Below are positions 3,204 to 56,387 of a stretch of DNA of 64,000 bases, in pieces. Both the position numbers and the translations under genes were made by a program. Under the pieces are notes generated by a model. The model saw nothing but the letters and a program-made list of their open reading frames with translations. It did no database searches and was not told where the DNA came from. Source of the stretch: Golubevia sp. BC0850 (Eukaryota > Basidiomycota > Exobasidiomycetes > Golubeviales > Golubeviaceae); the NCBI GenBank assembly GCA_012976225.1, contig JAAVVG010000007.1:957924-1021923 (forward strand). Direction: 5' to 3'. The first letter of the stretch is position 1. Each line of letters opens with the position of its first letter.

Positions 3204-6200
3204 TCAAGCCTTCCCTTTGCCCTTTCCTTTATTCTTTCCTTTGCCCTTCCCGCCACTTGCTTCCTGCCCATTGGATTCTCCTTCGACTTTTTGATTTTTA
3301 TTCGGAGCTTCTATCGGAGGAGATATGACGCTGCCTGTTGCTGATTTAGCGACAGTAGACTGAGCCTCGGAGGCAGAGGCTTCGATTGTGCTTGAAGTTA
3401 CTTGCGAAGCTAGGTCGCAAGGTTCGGCTTCGACCTCGTCTTTTAGGTTTGAAGGATTGGGGACTGAACTCAATGTTGATTTTGAGGTTTGAGCTGGAAC
3501 TGAAGAAGAGCTTGAAGAAGAAGAGTCGATCAAACCCCCCACGGATTGATAGCCTAGTAACCTGGCAGCTTCTTCTGGATCCTTCTTCATTAGATCATAG
3601 AACATCTTCCTCTGTCTTTCAAGATCTGGGTTCTGAGATCCTAGACCTTCCATTACTTTTCTGTTCTCCGAAGCCTGCATCTCTTCCTTCCTCTCTTCAT
3701 CCTTTCCTTCTTTCTTAACAGTTTCGAACTTTTCTCTGACTGATCGATAATGTTGCATCTCAGCTTCCGAAACACTTGGAACTAATTCTCTCAAAGCATT
3801 TTCGAAATCAACCTTCGAAACTTTGATTTCGGTATCTTCTTTCTTTGATAGTTCAGCTAAATAATATTGCGGAGTTAAAGGATGTGGATGAGATCTGACC
3901 TTTCGTTTCGTAACGCCACTCATCGAATCCATCTCCCTTTCTTTCTGAATTTCGGTCTCATTTTCATCATTAATCTGAGCGATGATAGCATCGACTTCTT
4001 CAGCTTTTCTAGTCATAGCCTTTAACAATGCGTCAGAACATAAAGCATAGAAATCAGCTCCTGTTAAGTTCAAGGGACATTGATTTGCAATGACCGACAA
4101 ATCTGAGCAATCTTCAGCTAGTTTGAACTTTCGAGTTAAGGCTTCAATGATCGGCAATTGGTTGGCGTGCGTCTCCGCTACTGAAAGGTAGAGTAATCGA
4201 TCGAATCTGTGGCAAGGAAAGAAGATCAGTAAGTCACAACGAATGGATCCAGCATATCTCCTCTCTTCGCCTACTCACCTTCCAGGTCTCAACAGCGCCG
4301 GATCCAAAAGATCTGGTCTATTGGTAGCTCCGATGACGAAGACATCATTTCCCTCTCCACCTCCAGCCATACCATCCAATTCAGCCAACAGCTGACTGAC
4401 AATTCTATCCATAACTCCACCACTGTCACCTTGATTTCCTCTTTTGGGAGCCACGGAATCCAATTCGTCGAAGAAGATAACGCAAGGTTTAGCATCTCTA
4501 GCTCTTGCGAACACTCTCCTGACATTCGCCTCCGATTCTCCAATGTACATGTTCAGCAATTCAGGACCTTTGACCGAGAAGAAGTTCAAGGAACATGAAG
4601 TTGCTACTGCTTTTGCTAGAAGAGTCTTTCCGGTTCCAGGAGGACCATAAAGTAAGATTCCAGATCGCTTCTTCAGACCTGATGAGAAGAGTTCTGGATG
4701 TTCTAGAGGTAGTTGGATTGTGTCGAGAATATCTGATTTGACAGATGCCAGACCTCCTACGTCGTCCCAGGTAACCGAAGGAATCTTGGGAGCTCCAATA
4801 GAGGCACTGTAACTGCTTCGAGCAGCTGAAAGTGCAGATTCGAAATCGGATCCAGTGAGACAGAGTCCTGCGGTGAGAAGATCTGTATCTGTGGGAGGAG
4901 TGGAGAGATGAGAGCTTAAAGGAGGACGAAAGAGAGAAGTTGCAGATGATCAGAATCAAAGATCAAGACAAGGCAGCTGAGGATTACGAGCATTTGAACA
5001 ACTCACAAAGCTTTCCTGAGCCTCTCCATAGAAGCCAGCCTAGCTCTAGAAACCAAGTCCACCAAGTCAGCGGCCACAAGAGCAGCAGTCTGAGTTGCCA
5101 GATTCTTGAGACTGACGTCCAATCCAAGAGGCGAATCCTCGAGAGTGTTCTTCAAAATCTCAAGACGTTGGGATTCATTGGGAGCCTTGGATAGTTGAAA
5201 AATAGAAAGTAAAAAATTGCCTGAGTTTGCTTATTCGATGGACTTGGGAAACAGACGCGCCATCTCTTCCTATCAACTCACCTCTATCGAGAACTCGTGT
5301 TTGAAGCAAGCCAGAACTCCACTTGGACATTTCTCATGATCCGAGGTAGTAGCAACAATAGCAACCGGCTTTGGATTCTCATCTTCTTCGTCTTCTTCAA
5401 TCTCTCGATCCTCTTCTTCCTCTTCACCATCTTCTGGAAGTCCATTGACTCTCGATTGAATTTTCTTGTCCTTGTTTTTGTTCTTGTTCTTCTTCCCGGC
5501 TTTCCTTAGACCATCTATGCAGTCCTCCAAGATTCCAGTCATAGAAGGTTCCAATCCAGTTTCCATAGCTTGGGATTTCCTTGCTAAGGCATCGATGTTC
5601 TTCAATAGAAGAATAGAAGGAGAACAAGCAATAGCTTTATCGAATCTTGATCTTAGGATCCCTTCAGTTCTAACGTCTGTATCTGATAGGAGGGAGAAAC
5701 AATCGACCTGTAGGGAAAGAAAAAGACAGAAGCACTCTCAGCCTTCGTAGTTGAGAGAAAATTCAGGAAAAGGCAAACTGAACTCACCTCAATCAAATGG
5801 ACTCCACTTTTCTCAGCCAACCATTTCACCAAAGTTTTCTTCCCACTACCTCTAGCACCTTTTAACAAAACACTTAAATGAATCCCCAGATTCCCAGAGT
5901 CTTTTCGCATAGTAGCCTTCAGAAGATCTTGAAGCTTTTGATAAATACTTGAAGTTCCAGTCAAGCTCGAGGAAGAAGATAAAAGACTGGGTTTCTCCTC
6001 ATCTTCATCTCTAGGGAAAGTAGGTAGCCCATCTCTTTCAATCCCCAAATAATCTCCCATGAAGACCACTCTTTTGTTTTCCACTCCAGTTTGAACTAAT
6101 TTCGAGATCCTAGAGTCAACGATAGACCCCAATTTTCCTTTTCTAGCCTTTTCTTTAAGACTTAAGAGGTTTGAGATACTAGAAATTGAGGGATCCTCTT

Positions 6201-7857
6201 TGGAAGGAGGTAATAGCTCAGGAACGAGTGATGAGATATAGAAAAAAACTACTTGAGAAAGCTTTTCATCTTGAAGTTGATCGGTCTCATCAAATCTCAC
6301 CTTCTTGTTGCTATTCCCAACAGGTAAATCCCAATCCATCCCTTCTTCCTCTTCGACCTGTTCTCCATCTTTCTTCTCATCTTTCTCTCCTTCTTCTTCT
6401 TCATCTCCGCCACTTCCCAAATTCTTTACAAACCTACCACCTCTTTCGCCAATTCCGACGGCAATCAGATCCCCTTTCTTAACTACCCTCCTTTTGCCTT
6501 CGAAGTAACTCCTCAAGCCTGCCAAAAATAGAGGCTGGAAGTTCTTAGACGTTGATATTTGAGAAGGAACTCTTGAGATCGAAAGAGAATCGGCGAAAGG
6601 AAGGGAGAGAGGAATTGAGAGTGGAGTGGTTGAGGTTGAGAGACTCGAGTTTGGCAGTAATTGAATTCTGAGATGATGAGATGAGATTGACGACAGAGGA
6701 TCGAAAGAAGATGAACGCATCAGGTTTTGGTAAAGCAGGGGTGGAATGAGGGTCTTGGGTTGACTGCTTGAATGTCGTTTCGTTGGAGATTTAGAATCAG
6801 AATCTTGAGAACAGAAAACTCGAATCAATCTTTCCTTTTCTTTCCCTTTTCCTTTAGAATTCGAGTTCCCCTTTCTTTCATTGATCCGATTCTCTTCTAA
6901 TTTGACGACCACCCAATCTCCATTAAAAGCTCCTAATTTCAATAAATCTCTCTCGTTCATTAAAATCAAAGATTCTGAATCGATTTCTTCTTCTTCTTCT
7001 TGAGAACTTCCACCTTCTCCATTTTTCTGATCTCGGTAATTAGAGATAGAGTTGTAAACCAAAGCTCTAGATCTTAGAAGTTCCAAATCAAACTTGATCG
7101 AAGAATAAGATGAAACCTTAGATGTAGGATTCGACGAAAGGTTAGGTTGGCTTTGATCTCCATTTGGATTCCCATTGACCTGGCGACCATTGTTACCTAT
7201 CTGCAATCCCTCAAATCCTTGTAAGACGGATTGAGCGAGAAATGATTCATCAAATTCAATTTCCACTTCGTCTCCTTCTTCACTACCCTCCGCATCTTCG
7301 TCTGCATCTCCACCTCCATTAATCGAAAACGAAACTTCACTGTCAGTTTCGGACTCAGTTGTCTCCTGAGTTTCATTCAAAACCACGATCAATTCGGTCC
7401 TCTGTTCCTTTTCATCTTCTTCGTTCGAATCTTCTAAACCTAAATCTACTAAACCTTGCAGAACAGGTTCCACTCCAACTACTTTCCCTTCTGCTCCATT
7501 TCCTAAGTTGACTTTCTCTCCTACCCTCATGATCCGATTGTTTAGGAGGGTTTCTAGGTTTGAAGGGTCCTCTTGGATTTGATCAAAGGAGGATTGAGAG
7601 GAGATTGAAAGATAGAGGAAAGTTAGGAGAATTGGAGAATAGAGAGAGACTTTGGTTGAAGGTGAGGTGGAAGTCGAAGGGGAGAAATGTCGGCGGAGAA
7701 AATAGGGGAGAAGGATTGTTGAGGACTGGGTAGATGAAGGGTCGAGAGGTGGGGGAGAGGAAAGTGTGAGAAAGGTGAGAAGAGGCAGGCCGGAAGCCTT
7801 CTTCGTCTCCAAGCTGGGTAGCCCCGCTTTGAGTGACATGTTTAGAAGCGGAATCAA
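3204..7857 (-). CDS. PEX6: Peroxisomal AAA+ ATPase PEX6
   Basis: Five exons (7857-5788, 5707-5282, 5185-5007, 4914-4279, 4206-3204) sum to 1438 codons. Pex6 forms a heterohexamer with Pex1 that pulls ubiquitinated Pex5 out of the peroxisomal membrane. The D2 module is canonical: Walker [14 protein letters not shown], Walker [10 protein letters not shown], the substrate loop [13 protein letters not shown] and the arginine-finger region [16 protein letters not shown]1 is degenerate: [13 protein letters not shown] as P-loop and [10 protein letters not shown] where Walker B should be, as is usual for Pex6. The N-terminal ~500 residues are acidic and Ser-rich and expanded relative to yeast Pex6 (~1030 aa). 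The C-terminus carries a long low-complexity tail ending in Gly-Lys repeats. Start: Met at 7857, or six codons later at 7839. Exon 4 acceptor (TTTAAG, 4915) was chosen because it alone keeps phase. Confidence 0.93.
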
Positions 7858-7972
7858 CAGTGGTTTCTACCAATGTTTGACTTCCCCCGAAGGAAGGATT
7901 GGATTACATTCTTGCCTCTCATGGCTTGCCCAGCTCCGAGACCTTGCTTGACCTCTCTCTTCGTCAAAGGAT

Positions 7973-16323: not shown

Positions 16324-19152
16324 ATGTACGGAATGCTTCGCTCTGGAATTTCACCAGCTTCAAGGAATCTCTCCACTCAATTACGATCTTCAAACCTTTC
16401 AACACAACTACCGGTTAGTACCCCTATTTTATATTGGTATGGATTCGATTGATTCACATAGATCTATCACATTGGACAGCCACGATTCAGCTGAGTTCTC
16501 CTCATTAGCTCATCCTCCATTGCCACTTCTCTTCATCCCAACTTCTTCTCTCTTACTCATCTCCTCCTCCCCTCCCGTCCCTCCTCTTTCTGCTTCTCTC
16601 TACTACTTCCATCATCGAACAGCGACTAGCCACTCAAGGAGTCAGATGGAACTCCGGTGGAAAAGTTCAAGGCTCAGTCATCGGTATCGATCTAGGTAGT
16701 AAGTAGTTCATCATCATCATCCTCCCCATCTCTTTCCCTATCCTTCATCTAACCTCCCTCTCTCCCTCTCTCTTCCCAAGCCACCAACTCATGTGTTTCA
16801 GTAATGGAAGGTCAAACCGCTCGAGTGATTGAAAATTCGGAAGGTGGTAGAACCACTCCATCAGTAGTAGCCTTCACAAAAGATGGTGAAAGGTTAGTTG
16901 GAGTTCCAGCCAAACGTCAAGCCGTTGTCAATCCAGAAGCCACCCTTTTCGCAACCAAAAGATTGATCGGTAGGAAATTCCAAGACAAGGAAGTTCAAAA
17001 GGATTTAAACAACGTTCCTTTCAAGATTGTACCTCATTCTAATGGTGACGCTTGGTTGGAAGCTAGAGGTGAAAAATATTCTCCTTCTCAAATTGGTGCT
17101 TTTGTGGTCGGAAAAATGAAGGAAACTGCTGCTGCTTATCTTGGAAAAGCTGTTAAACATGCTGGTGAGTTGATCTACAACAAGAGATGAGGATGAGAGG
17201 GAGAGGCCAAAGGGAGCGAGTAGGACGAGATACAAAGTTGAAAAGAAGAATGGAAGAAAGTATAGGATGAGACAGCCCCCTCGTCGAGAGCTGAACTGCT
17301 CATGGATACAAGACTTTGGATTTCCCATTTGTTCTATACAAAATTTGATGGGATTCTTGTTCCGCGAGTCTAGAGAGCTACGATATTGAGGTTTCGGGAC
17401 CTTCTCTTCTGAACCCAAGGTCTGACTGAAAAGTTCTTCTCACCTCCCTCGCTCCTTTCAGTCATCACCGTCCCAGCCTACTTCAACGATTCTCAACGTC
17501 AAGCCACCAAGGATGCCGGTACCATCGCTGGACTAGATGTTCTCCGTGTCATCAACGAGCCAACTGCTGCTGCTCTAGCCTACGGATTGGACAGATCTGA
17601 TTCTTCAGTGATTGCAGTCTTCGATCTAGGTGGAGGTACCTTCGATGTCTCAATTCTAGAAATGCAAAAGGGAGTTTTCGAAGTGAAATCAACTAACGGA
17701 GACACTCATTTAGGAGGAGAAGATTTCGACATTGTCTTGGTTGAACATTTAGTTAAAGAATTCCAAAAAGATTCAGGAATCGATGTCTCAAAAGATCGTA
17801 TGGCAATTCAACGTATTCGTGAAGCTGCTGAAAAAGCCAAAATCGAATTGTCTTCAACTTCTCAAACTGATATTTCTTTACCTTATATTACAGCGGATGC
17901 ATCTGGACCAAAGCATATCAACACTAAATTATCTAGAGCTCAATTAGAAGGTTTAGTTGGAAAATTGATTGATAGAACCGTTGAACCTTGTAAGAAAGCG
18001 ATTTCTGATGCTGGAGTTAAAGCAAGTGAAATTGAAGAAATCATTATGGTTGGTGGAATGTCTAGAATGCCAAAAGTTGTTGAAACTGTTAAAGGAATTT
18101 TCAAACGTGATCCTTCTAAGGGAGTCAATCCAGATGAAGCTGTTGCTATTGGTGCTTCTATTCAAGGTGGAGTTCTTTCAGGTCAAGTGACTGATATCTT
18201 ACTTTTAGATGTCACTCCACTTTCTTTGGGAATTCAAACTCTCGGTGGAGTTTTCACTAGATTGATTAATCGTAATACTACTATTCCGACCAAGAAATCT
18301 CAAGTCTTCTCTACTGCTGCTGATGGTCAAACTGCAGTTGATATTCAGGTTTACCAAGGAGAGAGAGAATTGGTTAGAGATAACAAATTATTGGGTAATT
18401 TCCAATTGACTGGAATCCCACCTGCTCCAAAGGGTGTTCCTCAAGTTGAAGTCACTTTTGATATTGACGCTGATGGAATCGTTAACGTTTCTGCTAAGGA
18501 TAAGGCTACTAACAAGGATCAATCTATGACCATCGCTGCTGGTTCTGGTCTTTCTGATGCTGAAATTGAACGTATGGTTTCTGAATCTGAACAATACGCT
18601 GGTGAGTAGATTGATTGAAATGGTGATGCGCCTCTCCAGTTCTCGGATGATAATTCGCCTCTGTTTTCTAACCTATTTTTTCTCTCTTCTTTCTTTCAAC
18701 TTCTTCCTCTCAGAATCCGACAAGGCTAGAAAACTTGTCATCGAGGAGGCTAACAAGGCTATTTCTGTCTCTGGTGAGACCTCTAAGGCTCTTGCTGAGT
18801 TCAAGGAACAAGTCGATGCTAAGGAAGCTGAGGAACTACAGGTTAAGATCAAGGAGCTCGAGGAGCTTGCTGCTAAGGCCCAGAATGTGAGTACTTTTTT
18901 GGATCCGTTCGTCTGAGAAATAGAAGATGTAATCAATCACCTTGCTCATCCTTTCCTCTTGCACCTCCCCTCTCAAATTTACAGGGAGACGAAGAGATCA
19001 CTGCTGATGGACTAAGGGAAAAGATCGATTCAGTCCAACAAGCGTCTCTAGGACTCTTCAAGAAGGTTTACGAGAAGAGAGCCGCTGATGGTGATGCTGC
19101 TGAGAAGCCAAAGGACGAGAAGAAGGAAGGTGGTGAAGAGAAGAAGGAGTAA
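16324..19152 (+). CDS. SSC1: Mitochondrial HSP70 (Ssc1), 676 aa
   Basis: Six exons (16324-16413, 16623-16698, 16781-17164, 17462-18601, 18714-18886, 18985-19152) sum to exactly 677 codons. It is the ATP-dependent chaperone and import motor of the mitochondrial matrix. The N-terminus is Arg/Ser-rich without acidic residues, as in a matrix presequence. ATPase-domain signatures are present: [30 protein letters not shown] and [13 protein letters not shown]. The interdomain linker region reads [19 protein letters not shown], and the substrate-binding domain and helical lid follow. The C-terminus is Lys/Glu-rich and ends in KKE, without the cytosolic EEVD. An intron splits the first phosphate loop (GGT-A|CC) between exons 2 and 3; acceptor 16780 (TTCCCAAG) restores GTTNS. 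Confidence 0.98.
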
Positions 19153-21818: not shown

Positions 21819-23694
21819 ATGCTTCTCTCATCTTCGAGGACGAGCTTACTTCCACTGTTGTCAATCTTCTCGCTGGTGCTGCTCTGCCTATCAACTCTAG
21901 TCGCTTCAAAAGGTTCTTCAACTGGGAATCGTCTCTTAGTGGTACTAGATTCTGCAAGCTCAAAGAAAACTTATTCAACGTTCTTTGACGATTTGGAACA
22001 GAGGGGTTATCAGATCAGCTTTAGAGGCTCAAAGGAAGTATCTCCACAGCTGTACAGTCATGAGGAAAGGGAATTCGATCAGCTTCTATTGATGGCTCCA
22101 ACCGCAAAGTGTGAGTAGAGCCAGTATGATCCAATCAATAGGAAAGGGAACCCAAAGAAAGAAGAGCATTGCTTGAAGGTTAGAATTCTAGTCCATCCTA
22201 CCCTAATCTTCCTACCACTCACTCCTCACCAATCCGTAGCTCTACCATCAGATTTATCTCCTCAATCCCTAGTCTCTTTCCTCAAAGGCGGTGGAAACAT
22301 GGTCATCTCGGTCTCTCCCTCTTTGACAGAATCTTATCGTGATCTAGCTAGAGAGTTCTCATTAGAGCTCTCCGAAAGAGGAAGTACTCTGATAGATCAT
22401 TTCCGCTATTCAACCAACAACGATGAATCGAAAGATCATTCTTCAGTACTCTTAGGACCTTCTTCAGATTTATCAGGAAGTGGTTTATCTTCAGGTGGGA
22501 TTTTAGTCAATGAAGCCATCTTCTCAAGAGAAACTCTAGCTCTTTCTACAACCCTTCCAATCCTCTACAAAGGTTTAACGCATAGAGTTGGAGCGTTACC
22601 TCTAGCTTTCCCAATCTTAAAAGCACCTGGTACTAGTTATTCTGGTGAAGCCCCAAAGGAGAATGGTCAAATCTCTCCGATTTTAGATGAAGCTAGCCCA
22701 GAAGTACCAATTTTAGGTGGGGAAGAAGATGTTTCTCTGATTAGTGGATTTCAACTTCGGGATAATTCTGCTAGAGTCGCTTGGGTTGGAAGCTTGGATA
22801 TGTTCAGTAATGACTTCTTGAACGCAAAGAAGGTCAAGAGCGCTGATGGAGCAATGTGAGTTACGAGATTTCACAATCAAATGTATGCGTCTCATCCCTT
22901 TGCTACCCTTGAGTACTGGTTTCACTTATTCTCTTCATCTCTCCCCCTCGTGATATAATTGATTCTTGAACAGCTACCCTTCCACTCTCAACGGCCCTCT
23001 TCTGCGAGACTTGACCTCTTGGACTTTCCAAGAACGTGGAGTCTTGAAGGTTTCTTCAACCCATCATGATAGGATCAGAACAGCCAAGGATGATGTCAGA
23101 GAACCATACGAGGAAGAAGGTTCTGGAAAGATGTACAGGGTCAAGGACGGCGTCGTGAGTAGCATTCTTTCCCCAAATCTGATGAGAGAACTCAAACACT
23201 AACCTCTTGTTCTTTCTCACCAGACCTTCACCATGGATCTCTCAACCTTCGATTCCGAAGCCGGCTGGATCGCTGCCCCAACAGATTTAGATCTTCAAGT
23301 TTCTCTAGTCATGCTAGACCCTTACATCACAACCTCTCTCTCAGCCTCTCCAACTGAAAATGAATTAACGACATTAGAATCAGACGCTCTATCGTCTCTT
23401 CCTGCAGTAACTAACACTACTACTCGTTACAGTGCTTCCTTCAAACTACCAGATCGTCATGGAGTCTTCACTTTCTCTGTCAAGTGGTCAAGGAACGGCT
23501 GGTCTTATGTCTCTACTAAGGACACAGCTCCCGTACGACCTTTTAACCACGATGAACATCCAAGATGGTTAAGCTCTGCTCATCCTTATTACGCCGGCGC
23601 TTGGTCTACCGTGGTTGCTTTCTTGGTCTTCTCTACTATTTGGATCATGACGGCGGAGAAGGAAATGAAAGGGGAAGGAAAGAAAGCCAAGTGA
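21819..23694 (+). CDS. WBP1: Oligosaccharyltransferase 48-kDa subunit (WBP1/OST48), 519 aa
   Basis: Four exons (21819-22110, 22240-22855, 22974-23154, 23224-23694) sum to 520 codons. It is an essential subunit of the ER oligosaccharyltransferase that N-glycosylates nascent proteins. A signal peptide (residues ~1-29, hydrophobic core SLLPLLSIFSLVLLCLS) precedes the conserved RLLVVLDS and YSTFFDDLEQRGYQISFRGS. Further family motifs are FLKGGGNMVISVSP, RVAWVGSLDMFSNDF and HGVFTFSVKWSRNGWSYV. One C-terminal membrane helix (AGAWSTVVAFLVFSTIWIMT) is followed by a short Lys-rich cytosolic tail ending KGEGKKAK, which resembles the dilysine ER-retention tail of this family. Somewhat longer than yeast Wbp1 (430 aa), mainly through loops. 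Confidence 0.96.
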
Positions 23695-29542: not shown

Positions 29543-29981
29543 ACGGAACATTCAAGTACTTTAGAAGAATATCCTTTTGAAATGTCAAAACTCAGTCCTT
29601 ACTCCTTACACTCAACCTCCAAGATCAATCTTAGCTTCTTTGCTTATCTGTATTTGTATTATTCCAGAGCATTCAATCTTTTAGAAATCATTCAGAAAAT
29701 CCCTCACCTCTCACATTTCAAAACGGGAATTCTCTAGACTGTTGTTTGACGAGCTCTCAACTGCTTTACATCTCTGTGCTTCGAACTCTCCAGTCAACTT
29801 GATTTTCAAGTGATTCATCAAGAGACTCGCAGGAATTACAATGAAAGCAGGGGAGTGAGAGTTGGATCTCGAATTGCTCCTTCGTTTCAAGCAGTATCTA
29901 CTATACTGTTATATTATGTTACAATGCCTCCCATCCCATCAGTGCTGTTCGAACACAAAGACCTCAGCATACCAAGCCTCT
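29543..29981. other. Intergenic between convergent genes, 0.44 kb
   Basis: 3' flanks of PET117 and the S9/PIG-H gene. Bases 29939-29981 still look coding in a shifted frame: they would encode the usual C-terminal helix of the S9 family (see findings). Confidence 0.55.
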
Positions 29982-32900
29982 TCAGCTTCCAAGGCTTTCT
30001 TTTGATTCTCCGATTGACGGAAACCTGAAGAGAGAGAGAGAAAGGTTCGGAAGGAGATTCAAAGATTCAGCAGGGGTGAGCTTTAGAAGCTATCGAATTT
30101 GTCTCGTTTTTGACTCACCATGACCTTCACCCTCAAACAGAATGTACTTCGTTATCCCTCCATTCTTCTCTACAGCTTTGGAGATCTCCTCGCTTTGATT
30201 GGGAGGGACGATTTTGTCTTCCGAACCTTGAAGGACCAGAATTGGAGCCTTGATCTTGTCAGCTTTGAATAGAGGAGAACGTTCGTGATAGACTTCAGGA
30301 ATCTCTTCAGGAGTCCCACCCATGAGGACTAGAGGATAGCGAGATTCAAACTTGTGAGACTCGTGAGCCAAAGCTGTCACATCGGAGACTCCATAAAGCG
30401 AAGTTCCTGCATTGTAGACGTTCGGATGGTCGGTGAGACAGGCTAACACTGTGTACCCTCCGGCTGAACCTCCACTGATGACCAGCTTGTTGGGATCGGC
30501 TCGAGGGATAGAAGAAGAAGAGGATTGAAGTGTGGAAGTCGAATCATCACCGAATACGACTGGGTAGATTGAACTGAAGATTCTTTGGACCAGAGGGAGA
30601 CGAGGGGAAAGAGACTGCAAAGGGAAGACGTAGCCAAAGGGGGGGGGCAGAGAGAGAGAGAGAGATGAGACGGTCAGAGGGCAGCGACGCAGTGCCAGGT
30701 TTCTGGGTCGTTCTAGGACCTCCACTCACTGGGAACAGGACCTTCAAGTCTCCTTCTTCTCCAATTCCTTTTTCCAGGGCCTCTCTACTCCCTCTACTCC
30801 TACTAGCTTTGGTCGCCACGACGACTTGAGTTCCGACGTTCCATCTCTTGAAAGACTCAGTGACCATTACGTCCAAGATGGAATCTCTGGCTATAAAGTG
30901 AGAAGAATACGAAGAGATCCAGAAAGGATTCTTCTCAGTCGAGACAGAGCTTCGAAGGGAAGCGAGGCTTCGAGGCAGAGAGAGACCTCTTGTGGTGGAA
31001 AGCTGAAGTCCCATCGAGGGAATCGCATTCACGGTCTCATTCTGGACCCTGAACATTTTACCAAAAAGCCAGGTAGCAGCTGCAAGACCTAGAGGGTAGC
31101 GAAGTTCCGAGAATTGAACGACTGAAGAACCTAGATTGGTGAAAGAAAAGACTGATCCAATCGATAGAGCCGCTGCGATGATTCCATCGCTCCAGGTCCA
31201 AGCTTTAGTCCAATTGTCGAACTGAAGCTCGACAGCTCCGTTTGCTTGTCTCGATTCCTTGAGAGCCGATTCTTGAGCTGAGAGGTCTTTTGAAGAGGAT
31301 TGAGTCGGCATAGAAGACGAGGTAGAAGGGGTAGAAGAAGAGACCGAACCAAGGAATTTGGCAGCGTGGACGCAATCCAGAACGTCAGTGATTCCCCACT
31401 TGGAATCGAGTCTTTCCATGAACTTGCGACCGTCTGGGAGAAGATAAGGAGAGGGAGAGAAGCGTGAGTTTCAGCAACCTTGACAGGAATTTAGAGGCGC
31501 AGAGCGTACTCACATCCAGTAGATCCTCCATAATTGACGACACAGACTAGAAGGGCGGTGTATGACAGAAAGGCGAGATGAATCGTCAGATTCTGCTCTG
31601 AGGACAGAGGACCAAGAGAGACCTTTGTTTGTTACTCACCCAGCCATCCTCTACTAGTCCAGTAACTCCAGTTCAAGTTGAATCCAGCGTGAGCAGCCGC
31701 TGTAGGACCTCCATGAACGAAAGTGATACAAGGAGGTGAAGTTCCAGCGGGTGGAGAGAAGTTGGGATTCTTAGGTGGGAGGAGAAGAGCGTGGGCAGTC
31801 GAAGAACTTCCGTCCTGCCGGAAGGAAAGCCACAGCAAAAAGATACCAGTGAGAAAGGACCAGAATTGATAGATTAGAAATGGACCGATTGGAGGTACTC
31901 ACTGGCAACTTGGTAGGATATTCGATCTCCTCAACCTGACTGATCCAATCTTGATCCAGGATCCCGTCTTTAATGAGCTTGGAGCTTCTCTTAATTACCT
32001 TGATACTTTCTCTGTTGATTTGGACATCGCCTCCAGCTTGAATTCCATTCTTGACTCCTTCCGTAATCCTTCTCTTGCAATCTTCTAAATCCAAGACCAC
32101 GAGTTCAGAAGGAAGGTCATGACCTCCAACCGCGCAAATTAAGTGAGTGGAGTCTATTCTTCTCAGCTGTCCGAAGGAGATGTAATTGTAGAAAGTTCGA
32201 AGAGGATGAAGAGTTGAGGAAGGGAGATGGATGAGTGAAAGTTGAGTGAAACCTCCTTTGATTTGAGTGCAGACAAGGAACTTGGGGCAAAGCTGAATGT
32301 AGGAAGAGCTGAGAATACCAATGGTGGCGATGCAACATTAGGAAGATGCGTTAGTAAGATGAGCTGAGGTGAAAGGTGGAAACGGGGCGTACAGTCTTGC
32401 TCACTTGTTCAAAGTCCAAGCTGGGTCTTGGAAATCAGTTTCGACAACTTCCGACAAGACACTCTTCGATTCAGTAATCTTCAACTGAGTAGAATCCTCA
32501 GTGGACTGTACATCCAAAAAGTAAAGATTAGAATAACCGGTCCTATCACTAGTGTAGAAAAGTCGATTCGAATGATTAGGATCCAAATTCCAAAGAGGTT
32601 GATGAATGACTTCTCGCTTTGAAGGATCAAATCGTCTGATCATAGTCTTTTGAGATAATAAACCTTGATGGCTAGAAGAATCGCTAGAGACTAGAGCTGC
32701 AGTATCGAACTTGGCGACCCACAATTCCGTGTTCCAGAAAGGCATTTCAGGATGATTCCATTCTACCCAAGCGAGATAGGTGCCTTCTTTTGAGAAAGTA
32801 GCATTAGAATAGAAGTCAGAACCCGAAACCAAAGTTTGATGAGATTTGGTGGTTGGATCTACTAGGACCAGAGAGTTGAGGACCTGAGATGGGGTGTCGT

Positions 32901-33746
32901 GGGTGTGATCTTCTAGGATGGAGACGAAGTGCGAGATCGATGGAGAAGGGTGAGGAGAAAAGTCTCCAAATCTATGAAGGGGATTATCTGGATGGGACAA
33001 GGGGTAATCATAGATGATACAGATGAAGGGAAGATCAGAGGTGGGTTCCAAGTCCCATCCTGGTCGCTCTCCCCGTCTCTCGCTTCTTGCTCCTAGATCT
33101 TATGCTTTCCAGGACTATATCTATAGCTACTGAATGTTTCTTTATCAAGCACCCAACTGAATGCGATGCACTCACCTGGCGTGACCAACTGTGGCTCTCC
33201 GCTCTCCCTTTGCTCTCCCTCCTCCTTGACTGAATAGACACCAAAGCTCTTAGGGTCGTAGTCTGTGAAGAATATCCCACCATTTGAATCCGATCTAACA
33301 GATCCACCGCCATATTCATGAATTCCAGATCTAGAGTTGAACTTCCCAAGAGTTAAGTCTTTGCCATCCTCTCCTTCTCCTTCTCCTCCCTTTCCTTCCA
33401 ACTGTTCGTCTAAATCCAAGACTTTTGAATCCAAATCTATGATTCTCTTGACCAAAGCCGCTCTTCCCTTTTCGCTTGGTCTGTTCTCCACGTAAACTAT
33501 CTGAACCTGGTTCTTGCTCTTATCAGTCGAATTCAAAACTTGAATCTCTCCGAATTTGATATTCTTTTGAATGATTAAATCCGATGTAATCTTGGATTTC
33601 CATGATCCGTACGGAGCAATCGTTTGGCTTTTTTGCTTGGAAGTCATTCTTGAACGAAGAGTTGAACGAGAATCAAAGAAAGAGGACAATCGCATCGATG
33701 AAGTGCAATCAATGGAATCAAAAAATGAGCTTATTGGCTTCTTCAC
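29982..33746 (-). CDS. S9 prolyl-oligopeptidase-family protein with inserted PIG-H/GPI15 domain, ~1040 aa
   Basis: Eight exons (33746-33176, 33098-32405, 32308-31903, 31814-31640, 31546-31514, 31433-30730, 30614-30119, 30025-29982) keep phase to a stop at 29984-29982. The N-terminal half is the beta-propeller of S9C-type peptidases (IAPYGSWKSKITSDLI, GIHEYGGGSVRSD, FGDFSPHPS). The alpha/beta-hydrolase half has FVHGGPTAAAHAGF, VNYGGSTGYGRKFMERL, KWGITDVLDCVHAAKFL, the nucleophile elbow SGGSAGGYT, the Asp in QGSEDKIVPP and the His in EGEGHG, so the catalytic triad is intact. Between AAKFL and ADPNKL lie ~245 extra residues that form a PIG-H domain (separate entry). Translation may begin at the Met at 33647; the longer start adds a Ser/Arg-rich segment. 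A run of five A's near 30000 shifts the frame and removes the usual last helix. Confidence 0.85.
30501..31350 (-). other. GPI15: PIG-H (GPI15) domain inserted in the S9 catalytic domain
   Basis: This is an in-frame insert of about 245 residues. It starts with a Ser/Thr linker, then two hydrophobic segments (DGIIAAALSIGSVFSFTNLG; PLGLAAATWLFGKM). The PIG-H core follows: QNETVNAIPSMGLQLST, HFIARDSILDVMVTESFKRW, DLKVLFP, a 115-nt intron (30729-30615), then PRLPLVQRIFSSIYPVVFG. A Ser-rich linker (STLQSSSSSIPR) closes it. PIG-H is a non-catalytic subunit of the ER enzyme that adds GlcNAc to phosphatidylinositol, the first step of GPI synthesis. Both termini of PIG-H face the cytosol, so insertion into a cytosolic enzyme is topologically possible. 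The family was assigned from motif memory, not a search. Confidence 0.78.
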
Positions 33747-47716: not shown

Positions 47717-50525
47717 TCACTGCAAAGAGATTCCTTCGACTCCTCTCCTCAATCTACCAAACAGATCAGTAGCCAACTGTTTGGCGCCATCGGCTGCATC
47801 TCCCAACCTCTCCGGATCCAGTAGTTGATTCCCGATCGCCCCCAATCCGCTTTCATCCCCCGCTGTCGCATTCCTCCCTCCAACAGCCAACTGTACTGGA
47901 CCAATAGAGAGATTAAGAGGCGTAGACCCAGTTCCAACCGGAGGAGGCTTGGCTATCGAAGGAGGAAATCTAGAGGCTGAGTCTTGAATCAAATCTAAAA
48001 AGGAGGTAGAATTGTGAATGCACGTTCCACCTAGAAGAAATCGAGCTCCTCCACCTGGACCTGAGGCTCCTTGAGAATTTAAGAGGGCTATTGTTCGAGC
48101 CTCTATGATGAAAGAGGTGTAAAGAAGAGTGAGGTCAAGAGTCAGGAAATCGCTTATGAAGAGAGGTTTAGAGTGCTGTTGTTTATCCTTCTTACCTTCA
48201 TAAGTAGCTCCGCCGATCATGAAAAGAATGACATCTTGAGGTCTGGAAGATCGAAAGTGGCAGATAAGAGACGTTTAAGGAAAAAGAAAAAAAAAAGAAA
48301 AAACAAAAACAAAAAAAGGAGGAGGTTGGAGAAGTTCATTCTCAGCTTCACTCACTTCTGCATTCCCCCAACTCCAGCTGCATTCGGCTGTCCATTAGCT
48401 TGAGTAGGAGCTTGACCAACAAAAGGATAACTCGTCTCTCTAAGTCTTCCCTTCATCAACTGCTCAACTGTCTCCAACAAATGTGGAGAATGTTGAGTAT
48501 AAACATTCTCGACTCCCTGAAAGAAGAAGGAAAGATCAAAAGAAGGTCAACAATTTGAGACTTCACCAGGCTTTGGTCTTCAAAAGGCAAAGGGAAAAGA
48601 TCTTTCCACTTACCTTCAATCCTTTCAGAGCACTTTTCCCCCTTGAAAAGAAATTCTCATTCGCAAAGAGATCATCTTGTCGTTGATCTGCTCCAGCAAG
48701 GTTCAACATGACGAATACGAGCTATAAAAAGTATGCCAAAAATTAAAAAGTCAGTTGCTTTCGTCTTGACTTCGAACGTACTTGGGTTGAAGGGTTTTTT
48801 CATCTAGAGATTGGAGATCACTCACCCCAGCTCTACTTTCCTCAACTCCAACTTCCAACAATTTCTTGACTATGTTTGCGATTTGATTTCCACCATATTT
48901 CTGATATCTAAGAGCATAAAGAATTGCGAGCCTTAATTTCGCATCTTGAGAGATAGACGAATCTTCAAGAAGTGATTGAACGTTCTAAGAGGATTTGGAA
49001 AGTAATTGATCAAACTCTTTAGATTCTCAAGTATTGCTTCAGATAATAATCTATCGCTCGTACCTCCTAACTCACCTTCAAATCTCCAGCATGACTTTCC
49101 TGACTAGCCAAACTTTGTTCAAGTTCACTGACTTGCAAACTACTTTGCTTCTCTATCCTTCTACTCAATTCTCCCACAAGAGCCACATGTTTACTAACGT
49201 TGCCACCCAACTTTTTGAATTCAGGATAAGCTTCAACAAACCTTTTCATATCTTGAACCGTATCGATTTTAGCATTTGAAGCGGTTCTAGATTGATATTC
49301 CAAAACGTATTCTTTGATGGAAGCCCCTAGGTCTCCGAAATTGTTGTACATTTGAGAAGAGAAGAATGGGTCTGAGATGGAGGAGAGGACGATTTCCTGC
49401 AAGAAGAGGTTGAGGAGGTTAGGGAAAGGGAGGAGTGGGATGGCAGGAGGAGAGGTAGAAAGAGCTACTCACCTTCATGTCATCTCGAACTCCTTCAGCT
49501 CCATTCAGATCTACTCTTCCATTCTTGATTCCTAGCATCTCGTGTACCATGGCCATGTAAGTCCATTGAGTCAATAGAGGAGTGACTGGATCATTCCTTC
49601 GATCTAGGATGATCAGAAGAGGTTGAGGATCCGTTCTTCGGAAGGAGAAGAGGGAGGAATGAGAGGGAGAGTTGTGTATCCGCGTCTGGAGTAAAGATAG
49701 AGGAAGAGAAGGAGTCAGCGTAGAGAGCGAGTGGTGACCGAAAGGGCACGGAGATAAGCACCATCGATAGCTAAAGACAGCCCTCTCTCTCTTGGAACTC
49801 CCTTGGTTGACATATTTACTTCGCGGAACTGGTAAGAGGTATACAACATCTCGAGCCACTGGTTCCAGCTCTTGGACCATCAGCTATGCCCTTTTCTCTC
49901 TCGCTCTCCACACTGAACTCACATTCAATTCCTCTCCCAAAGTCTTTGCCAAATTACTCATCCTCTCATATCTGATCAGAGGTTTCTTCTTGAGACTCAG
50001 TAAGAGACTAGTGAGACCGTCATTATGCCTGTTCAAAGCCTGGTTATCCCACTGATTAGGATTCTTGTCCCAAAGCCTCCTCTCTGCCAAAGGTGGTTGC
50101 CAATCTAAACTGAAAAGTGAATTAGTGACTGGTAAATAATCCATAAAGAATTCTTGAACTTCTTGAACAAGATTATGAACATCTGCTTCAGCCAATCTCT
50201 CAATCGCAGTCTTTGTCAGATAATTAGTGAAATAGAGATGATAAGATTTGTATCTTGGTCTTGTTGATGATAATTCAGTTTCCAAGAAGGATAAAGTTTC
50301 CTCTGTTGGTGATAAAATTGAAATGCATTTCAAATGAGTCATGATATCTCTATTGGAATTTGATAAAATGTCTGTCAGATAAACATCTTTTAATAATAAA
50401 TCTGATTGAGTTAAAGAAGTTGAAATGATTGGAGTCGTGGAGGAATCTAATAGTAACACTTTAATTCCAGAAGTGCAAGAGATAATCTTGGAAATGTAAA
50501 GTGAAATCGCTTTAGTCGCATCCAT
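47717..50525 (-). CDS. VPS45: Sec1/Munc18-family protein VPS45, 665 aa
   Basis: Eight exons (50525-49923, 49685-49473, 49396-49076, 48984-48826, 48721-48614, 48516-48356, 48242-48196, 48102-47717) sum to exactly 666 codons. Vps45 binds the syntaxin Tlg2 and its SNARE complex for traffic into the endosome/vacuole pathway. Diagnostic stretches: [92 protein letters not shown] and [17 protein letters not shown]. The C-terminus extends ~80 residues beyond yeast Vps45 with a Gly/Pro-rich tail. Met 50525 is the conserved start ([14 protein letters not shown]). Confidence 0.95.
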
Positions 50526-50819
50526 ACTAACAGTTGGAGGAGGATGAGTAGAAGTTAGCGAAGCGAGATGAGAAGTGTTGTTTGAATCGAGTTGCTCTCG
50601 AACCTCATCGACTCATCCATCCTTTCTTCTTCGCAAGATAGGTTCTTCTAGAAATAGATCATCAGAATGAGCTCTGGAAACACCTCCGAGACTTGAACAA
50701 GTCAGGTGCCCCCACAGGAAGAGAGCAGACAGCATCTTACCGCTTCGTTAAAACTTAAAAGTCCTTCTATCTGAACTTCAAACGCTTACTGCCTCAATTC
50801 TATTGACTTCTTTCTGCTG

Positions 50820-54847: not shown

Positions 54848-56387
54848 TCATCCCAACCTCTCATATTCCTCCCACCTCCTCTGAAGAACCTCCCAATCCA
54901 CGCAGTCCCAAAAGTTAATCATGTACCTCTCTTTCCCCCACATTCCATAATCAGGTAACCAAGCATGCTCCATGACGCTACAACAAAGTAGTGGAAATAG
55001 TTCGTCTCCATCTTGATAAGCTTTGGAATTCTTGCGAGAAGTGCTCGACGTATACGAAGAGGTGGTAAATCTTCCTACCACATCCCCACTTCCTCTCATA
55101 TAGTCCTCTTCTTTTGATAACTCCATCGCATCAGGATTCTTGTAACCCGTCAAACCAGTATTAGTCCCTTTCTGTTTCCTGTTCTGAACCAAGACAGTTC
55201 CACTACCAAAAGTTGGAACGATTCCAAGGTTTCCATTGGCATCTGTGACCAACCAAACCCAACCACTAGATGTCATAGACATTGCACAACTTGAGAAACT
55301 GGATTTGAAAGAAGTTAGAGATCCGTAAGTTGAGGTAAGAGCTGAGGATAAAGAATTCTGTTTAGGAGAGAAGGAAGAAGTTGGGGGTAGAGGTGGACCT
55401 AATTCTGGTGATAGATTTGGTTTCTGTAGAGGAAATAAAAGGGGGATAGGGAAAGGTAATGGAGGCATGTGAGATCGAGGGGAAGCGGAGCAGCAGGGAG
55501 AAGATCGAATACTTTCCCAACTCTACCTCAAAGTTGAAGAGCCCCAGTCTCATTCAATACCATTCCTACTGCTTCTACCTCTCTACTGTCCAACTACATC
55601 TCCGAAGCTCCAGCCACATCAACTCACCAAAGAGCTCAAGAAGAAACTGTTGTTAAGAGCCAAAGAAGCCCAATTGAAAGCTTGAATCAAAGTCTTGTCC
55701 TGAGAAGTTGAAATGACAGTCTCCACCAGACTTGAATTCTCGAATCCAGTTCCTAATAGAATGAGATCCGGAGAGAAGGAGTAGGGAGAGAGAGAGAGAG
55801 GAGAGAGGAAGGTTAGGTCTGTCTCTCTATCTCTATAGTCCTCTCCCTCTCGATGCAATGTTGATCTGAGCCAGAAACAGTAGGGCTCAAGTACATCTCA
55901 TGAGGTTCAAAGATAAGATGAGTGAGTTCAGAAGCAGAAGAACTTGAGAAGGAAGATAGTTTCAGCTCCCAGCTCCAGCTGCTCGCTCCTTCCCTTCCCT
56001 TCCCTTCCCATCAGTTCCAAACCCTATTGACCAAATCAATGAGTCGGTAATCGGTACTACACTATACTCGAGTCCTGTCCTGCCCTACCTGTGCTACTGA
56101 TACTGCGCTGTTACTGGTGACTAACCTTTAACTTCCTCATTCAACCTCTTCAACAAACCACCCTGCCAAGTGTTACCAATCAGATTCACAGCGGTTGAGC
56201 TGAGTAAGGGTTCACAACCATCTCTAATGGGTTCGGGTAAAGCTGGAAGAGAGTGAAGTGATCGAGAGGTAGAGGAAGTTGAAGGATTGATGACTGATGT
56301 ACTTGTACTAGTAGATGAAGAACACAACAGAAACCTCGAAGCTGTCGCTGTCCGTGTGGTTGATGATCTTAAAGTTGAACTCAACAT
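54848..56387 (-). CDS. Mitochondrial small-subunit ribosomal protein with Fe/Mn-SOD fold (mS42/mS43 type)
   Basis: Exon 1 (56387-56126) starts MLSSTLRSSTTRTATASRF, a presequence, then SLHSLPALPEPI, the usual opening of SOD-fold proteins, and WQGGLLKRLNEE. A middle exon (~55790-55625) has SSLVETVISTSQDK and FNWASLALNNSFF. The last (to 54848) has SGWVWLVTDANGNLGIVPTF, SVMEHAWLPDYGMWGKERYM and INFWDCVDWEVLQRRW. These follow Fe/Mn superoxide dismutases, but the metal-ligand DVWEHAYY motif is replaced by SVMEHAWLPDY. That is expected of Mrp1/Rsm26-type proteins of the mitochondrial small ribosomal subunit, not an active enzyme. I cannot decide between mS42 and mS43. Middle exon borders are approximate. 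Confidence 0.78.

Follow-up and report, generated by a model that had tools for sequence, protein, structure and literature searches.

A PIG-H (Gpi15) domain within the catalytic domain of a putative S9 peptidase in Golubevia sp. BC0850

How can PIG-H, normally a small stand-alone protein, come to lie inside the catalytic domain of a peptidase, and would the two be made as one chain? The question is raised by a gene in a 64,000-nucleotide stretch of contig JAAVVG010000007.1 from Golubevia sp. BC0850 (the window), which occupies 33647..29939 on the minus strand and encodes 984 amino acids in eight exons (33647-33176, 32987-32405, 32308-31903, 31814-31640, 31546-31514, 31433-30730, 30614-30119 and 30024-29939). 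Joined, these exons give 2955 nt whose only stop is the terminal one, and the seven introns (80-188 nt) all start with GTGAGT or GTGAGC and end in AG, in agreement with an earlier sequence-only reading, which had described a frame with no stop and with all introns in phase. The product, read on the minus strand, begins with an N-terminal region that is probably an S9 propeller (31903..33647, aa 1-487), followed by a first S9 hydrolase piece (31351..31814, aa 488-584) with the motifs HGGPT, NYGGSTGYGRKFMERLDSKWG and AAKFL, an insert of 245 codons split by intron 6 (30501..31350, aa 585-829), and a second hydrolase piece (29939..30500, aa 830-984). The limits of 30501-31350 given earlier for the insert are exact, 31350 being the first base of aa 585 and 30501 the last base of aa 829. 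Judging from the sequence, the gene probably makes a single polypeptide, a cytosolic S9 peptidase with an entire PIG-H/Gpi15 subunit inserted at one of its surface loops.

The peptidase part was characterized by profile and structure-database searches. Pfam placed Peptidase_S9 (PF00326) on the protein in two stretches, the better of which covers aa 830-979 (E 2.5e-42), with PIG-H between them, which is the split of PF00326 around PF10181 that had been anticipated; an NCBIfam profile search gave no match over its cut-offs. The best PDB relatives were 7c72 (E 2.1e-69) and 3azo (E 4.7e-65), named in the PDB table as prolyl oligopeptidase and aminopeptidase, and both align to the protein before and after the insert. 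Piece 1 (aa 488-584) aligns to 7c72 with an i-E of 1.6e-22 and to 3azo with an i-E of 3e-23. Further upstream, aa 208-425 align to the N-terminal region of 7c72 (i-E 6e-7); none of the Pfam propeller models matched the protein at its cut-off. Piece 2 carries, in this order, S841 in GGSAGG, D924 in GSEDK and H956 in GEGHGF, all aligned with 7c72 and 3azo, and the catalytic triad claimed by the sequence-only reading is thus present. The counterpart of S841 is Ser in 3azo and Ala at the same position of the 3azp chain. The fusion therefore shares its catalytic Ser, Asp and His with peptidases of the 7c72 / 3azo type, but differs from them in that its pre-nucleophile loop measures 245 rather than 5 residues and holds a membrane-protein domain. 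An insert of this length in a catalytic domain could disturb folding, so that the peptidase might be a dead scaffold on which PIG-H alone works, or vice versa. We consider this improbable, because the triad, HGGPT and the remainder of the catalytic domain have been retained (the last 153 residues are 46-47% identical to two bacterial PDB relatives) and the assembly holds no other PIG-H match, as described below.

To place the insert against the usual length of this loop, the distance from the last residue of AAKFL to the first of ADPNKL was measured in relatives found among genome contigs with an S9 alignment search. At least 561 relatives were confirmed, and the loop has 5 residues in all 80 of the best 80 that were measured, all of them prokaryotic, against 245 in the fusion. 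Since the C-terminal part of the catalytic domain served as the query, an insert N-terminal of it would not have excluded a relative. An S9 paralogue from the same genome, on contig C10, likewise has a loop of 5 residues (VDMSI) once its intron is removed. The sequence-only reading had put the two peptidase segments of S9C enzymes about 10 residues apart, and this figure is to be corrected to 5 on the evidence of these relatives and the paralogue. The fusion accordingly lacks a contiguous hydrolase domain in which just a short loop precedes the nucleophile strand; contiguity is a usual trait of the family and not a curated criterion of it. Relatives with the same domain order were sought in three further searches: viral contigs queried with the open frame that surrounds the insert gave 2 pattern matches and no relative, genome contigs queried with a piece of exon 7 gave 50 pattern matches and no relative, and viral contigs queried with the S9 alignment gave 53 matches and no relative.

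Within the insert, PF10181 matches aa 693-783 of the spliced protein (30754..31026, minus strand) with an E-value of 1.6e-7 and 31.4 bits, against a curated cut-off of 25; on the unspliced open frame the match scores 32.9 and 35.4 bits. The score is thus above the cut-off, yet modest in size. Intron 6 (30615..30729, phase 0) lies within PIG-H, between VLFP and SLSPRLPLV. Members of the PIG-H family carry a membrane hairpin of two segments ahead of the domain, and two such segments had been proposed here from the sequence. The first agrees with hydropathy, as aa 640-658, N-terminal to the PF10181 match, form the most hydrophobic 19-mer of the entire protein (mean 1.5), whereas the second candidate (aa 669-684) is weak and falls outside the top 25 windows. 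The hairpin is therefore rated likely, short of demonstrated. A PDB search with the PIG-H part of the insert returned no chain at E<=10, and AlphaFold2 run without an alignment on aa 613-791 (179 aa) gave a mean pLDDT of 35.7, which therefore lends no fold support to the PIG-H part.

The Ser/Thr linkers that had been described on both sides of PIG-H were recovered, one on the 5′ side of the insert (31207..31350, aa 585-632, S+T 38%) and one on the 3′ side (30501..30554, aa 812-829, S+T 50%); their boundaries within the insert are of our choosing. With such probably flexible stretches at both junctions, the translated fusion could be cleaved in the linkers, freeing PIG-H and leaving the peptidase halves as a nicked enzyme or to be degraded. 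Cleavage of both linkers would, however, split the hydrolase core, and we regard this course as rather unlikely.

Several lines of evidence bear on whether the insert is coding and native to this gene. The insert frame contains 0 stops, versus 6, 11, 8, 10 and 15 in the remaining five frames; its codon usage comes closer to that outside the insert than does the usage of any other frame (0.206 per codon, others -0.138 to -0.003), and its GC3 is 0.457 against 0.453 for the remainder of the gene. Seventeen S9 matches were found in the genome, and among the 12 loci compared, the fusion gene included, the one closest to the fusion shares about 32% identity with it over 102 residues. An artefact of assembly or sequencing is therefore highly improbable even though a single assembly was examined, given that the frame is held at both junctions and across seven introns, that codon usage is uniform, and that no separate PIG-H copy in the assembly and, among the S9 loci compared, no close copy was found.

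We then asked whether the genome encodes another GPI15. Searched by profile and by protein, the assembly (25.8 Mb, 64 contigs) gave no second PIG-H match at E<=10, so that the independent GPI15 against which the sequence-only reading had to be checked did not appear. These searches proceeded exon by exon, with 1 and 2 first-look candidates scored, and could therefore miss a second GPI15 that is much split or highly diverged; as the Gpi15 of C. albicans is described as poorly conserved in an excerpt of PMC6559964, a very diverged copy may still exist. The partner subunits PIG-A, PIG-C, PIG-Q and PIG-P were each found at one locus (by the models PF05024, PF06432, PF08510 and PF08288). According to the excerpted sources, deletions of GPI-GnT genes are lethal in S. 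cerevisiae, except those of GPI1 and ERI1 (PMC6559964), and the mammalian enzyme requires PIGH for activity (PMC7125958), for which reasons the sole PIG-H copy likely works. The same excerpt of PMC6559964 describes C. elegans and E. histolytica as being without PIG-H, so the complex does not require this subunit everywhere.

Two RNA products of a nested gene, an S9 message minus the insert and one for PIG-H that has a separate start, were weighed against the single chain. An in-frame GT..AG pair at 31349..30501 would join AAKFL exactly to ADPNKL, an intron interrupts this very loop in the C10 paralogue, and an ATG at 31311 lies within the 5′ linker. The donor of that pair, GTTCGG (acceptor CTCGAG), nevertheless agrees with GTGAGT at only 3 of 6 positions, whereas each inferred intron begins with GTGAG. 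The whole gene contains seven GTRAG sites, identical to the seven inferred donors, and the sole one in the insert is that of intron 6; thus no GTRAG donor would remove the insert, which answers in part the case of an S9 mRNA lacking 31350-30501 that the sequence-only reading had named against itself. Excision of 31349..30501 would also leave 0 loop residues, against 5 in each relative measured (80 of 80, the best of at least 561). As for a separate PIG-H message, the base at -3 is T for the ATG at 31311, versus A for the one at 33647, and reading in frame meets no stop until the end of the peptidase. Six alternative acceptors for intron 6 were tried as a way to a separate PIG-H end and rejected: one leaves the frame open, and the five that reach a stop all lose SPRLPLV. 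We therefore hold two RNA products to be unlikely. In a survey of GT/GC..AG pairs that combined donors close to aa 585 with acceptors in 30590-30451, 14 pairs keep the frame open, of which none restores the 5-residue loop and none has a GTRAG donor; these candidates for an exitron or nested gene were likewise set aside. If intron 6 is retained, the frame stops at 30549-30547, and a tandem TGATGA is seen here (30549-30544, minus strand), near the end of PIG-H, which could be chance or the relic of an old stop.

The C10 paralogue also offers a clue to how the arrangement may have arisen. Its loop corresponding to the PIG-H insertion site holds a 94-nt phase-1 intron (L007:1076-1169), which splits the codon immediately before ADEDEL. 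In the fusion gene, an unused AG that follows a pyrimidine-rich tract stands at the 3′ border of the insert (CTATCCCTCGAG, with its end at 30500); its use would split the first ADPNKL codon in phase 1, one codon from the site of the paralogue intron. As a likely origin, suggested by this phase-1 intron of the paralogue, we infer that a PIG-H gene nested in an S9 intron at this loop later became exonic. Such a conversion of nested gene into exon would explain the Ser-rich linkers, and the route can be followed in related fungi. Since the PIG-H part contains an intron, a processed copy is a less likely source of the insert, unless the intron was gained afterwards.

The best reading of the locus is that the polypeptide serves both as a cytosolic S9 peptidase and as the cell's Gpi15, the peptidase being tethered at the ER face of the GPI-GlcNAc transferase. 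The earlier proposal of peptidase and Gpi15 in one chain is thus supported by this analysis, and both activities would survive in that chain. On this reading the alpha/beta-hydrolase would assemble from two separated halves. In this fold the nucleophile strand starts at the end of the beta-sheet distal to the active site; the insert loop precedes that strand and, by this general topology, should lie at the sheet end remote from the active site, which means that the insert can exit as a separate domain. The Ser-rich linkers would carry PIG-H out of the hydrolase loop, and PIG-H would dip into the ER membrane with both of its ends cytosolic, so that the peptidase would remain in the cytosol. Such an arrangement requires both flanks of the insert to be cytosolic, and none of the 25 most hydrophobic windows of the protein lies near the N terminus. 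The human complex, as modelled with AlphaFold3, has PIGH partly in the membrane and partly on the cytosolic side, according to an excerpt of PMC12182360. The fusion chain would join PIG-A, PIG-C, PIG-Q and PIG-P as their Gpi15, a role that would fix the peptidase to the cytosolic face of the complex, at the ER. We propose tentatively, as a possibility somewhat short of even, that an essential GPI subunit of the ER exists here solely as a domain in an S9 catalytic fold, and that every GPI-GlcNAc transferase thus bears a peptidase. In that case the peptidase carried by each complex could provide a link between GPI synthesis and the turnover of peptides close to the ER.

Compared with known systems, the fusion resembles PIG-H/Gpi15 in passing the Pfam cut-off, in the hydrophobic stretch before the domain and in the partner subunits matched in the genome, and it differs in that its copy sits inside a peptidase, between S/T-rich linkers and with no stop of its own. 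Gene fusions and domain insertions as such are familiar events. Chimeric genes that occur naturally in basidiomycetes are described in an excerpt of PMC10051792, for example spermidine synthase-saccharopine reductase, whose parts are encoded by separate genes in ascomycetes. That chimera is alike in that one gene provides two distinct household functions, as far as the excerpt goes; it joins two metabolic enzymes, whereas in the fusion a membrane-complex subunit interrupts a catalytic core. No PIG-H/S9 fusion is announced in the titles or abstract openings of the literature surveyed, and the same architecture may lie unremarked in fungal protein databases. Excerpts of a Polyporus umbellatus study mention a PIG-H-domain gene and say nothing on a fusion, those of a Cryptococcus gattii study have S9 terms as rows of a Pfam table, and those of Trypanosoma brucei and yeast splicing studies have no bearing for or against it.

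In our judgement, workers on either family would not expect a soluble peptidase to have a membrane subunit of an ER complex within its catalytic core. If real, the gene is a natural experiment that tests to what extent an alpha/beta-hydrolase can be interrupted. It would likewise give a lead on what can be attached to both ends of PIG-H, a protein whose specific role is unclear according to an excerpt of PMC7125958. A further consequence would be that annotating the GPI pathway gene by gene can overlook a GPI15 that is recorded as a peptidase.

Two further features of the window were recorded. An upstream in-frame ATG of the fusion gene (33695-33648, minus strand) would add 16 Arg/Ser-rich residues (MRLSSFFDSRSTLRSR), which in our judgement resemble a mitochondrial presequence; the base at -3 is T at this ATG (33695) and A at the ATG at 33647. 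Elsewhere, the window holds a likely PEX6 gene (3207-7866, minus strand), in which the fourth PEX6 domain was matched by Pfam with E 4.6e-29 and the AAA lid weakly, below its cut-off, together with ordinary neighbours, namely the frames for HSP70 (17413-18606, plus strand), OST48 (22119-22856, plus strand), a Sec1-family protein (47720-50612, minus strand) and an Fe/Mn superoxide dismutase (54851-55522, minus strand).
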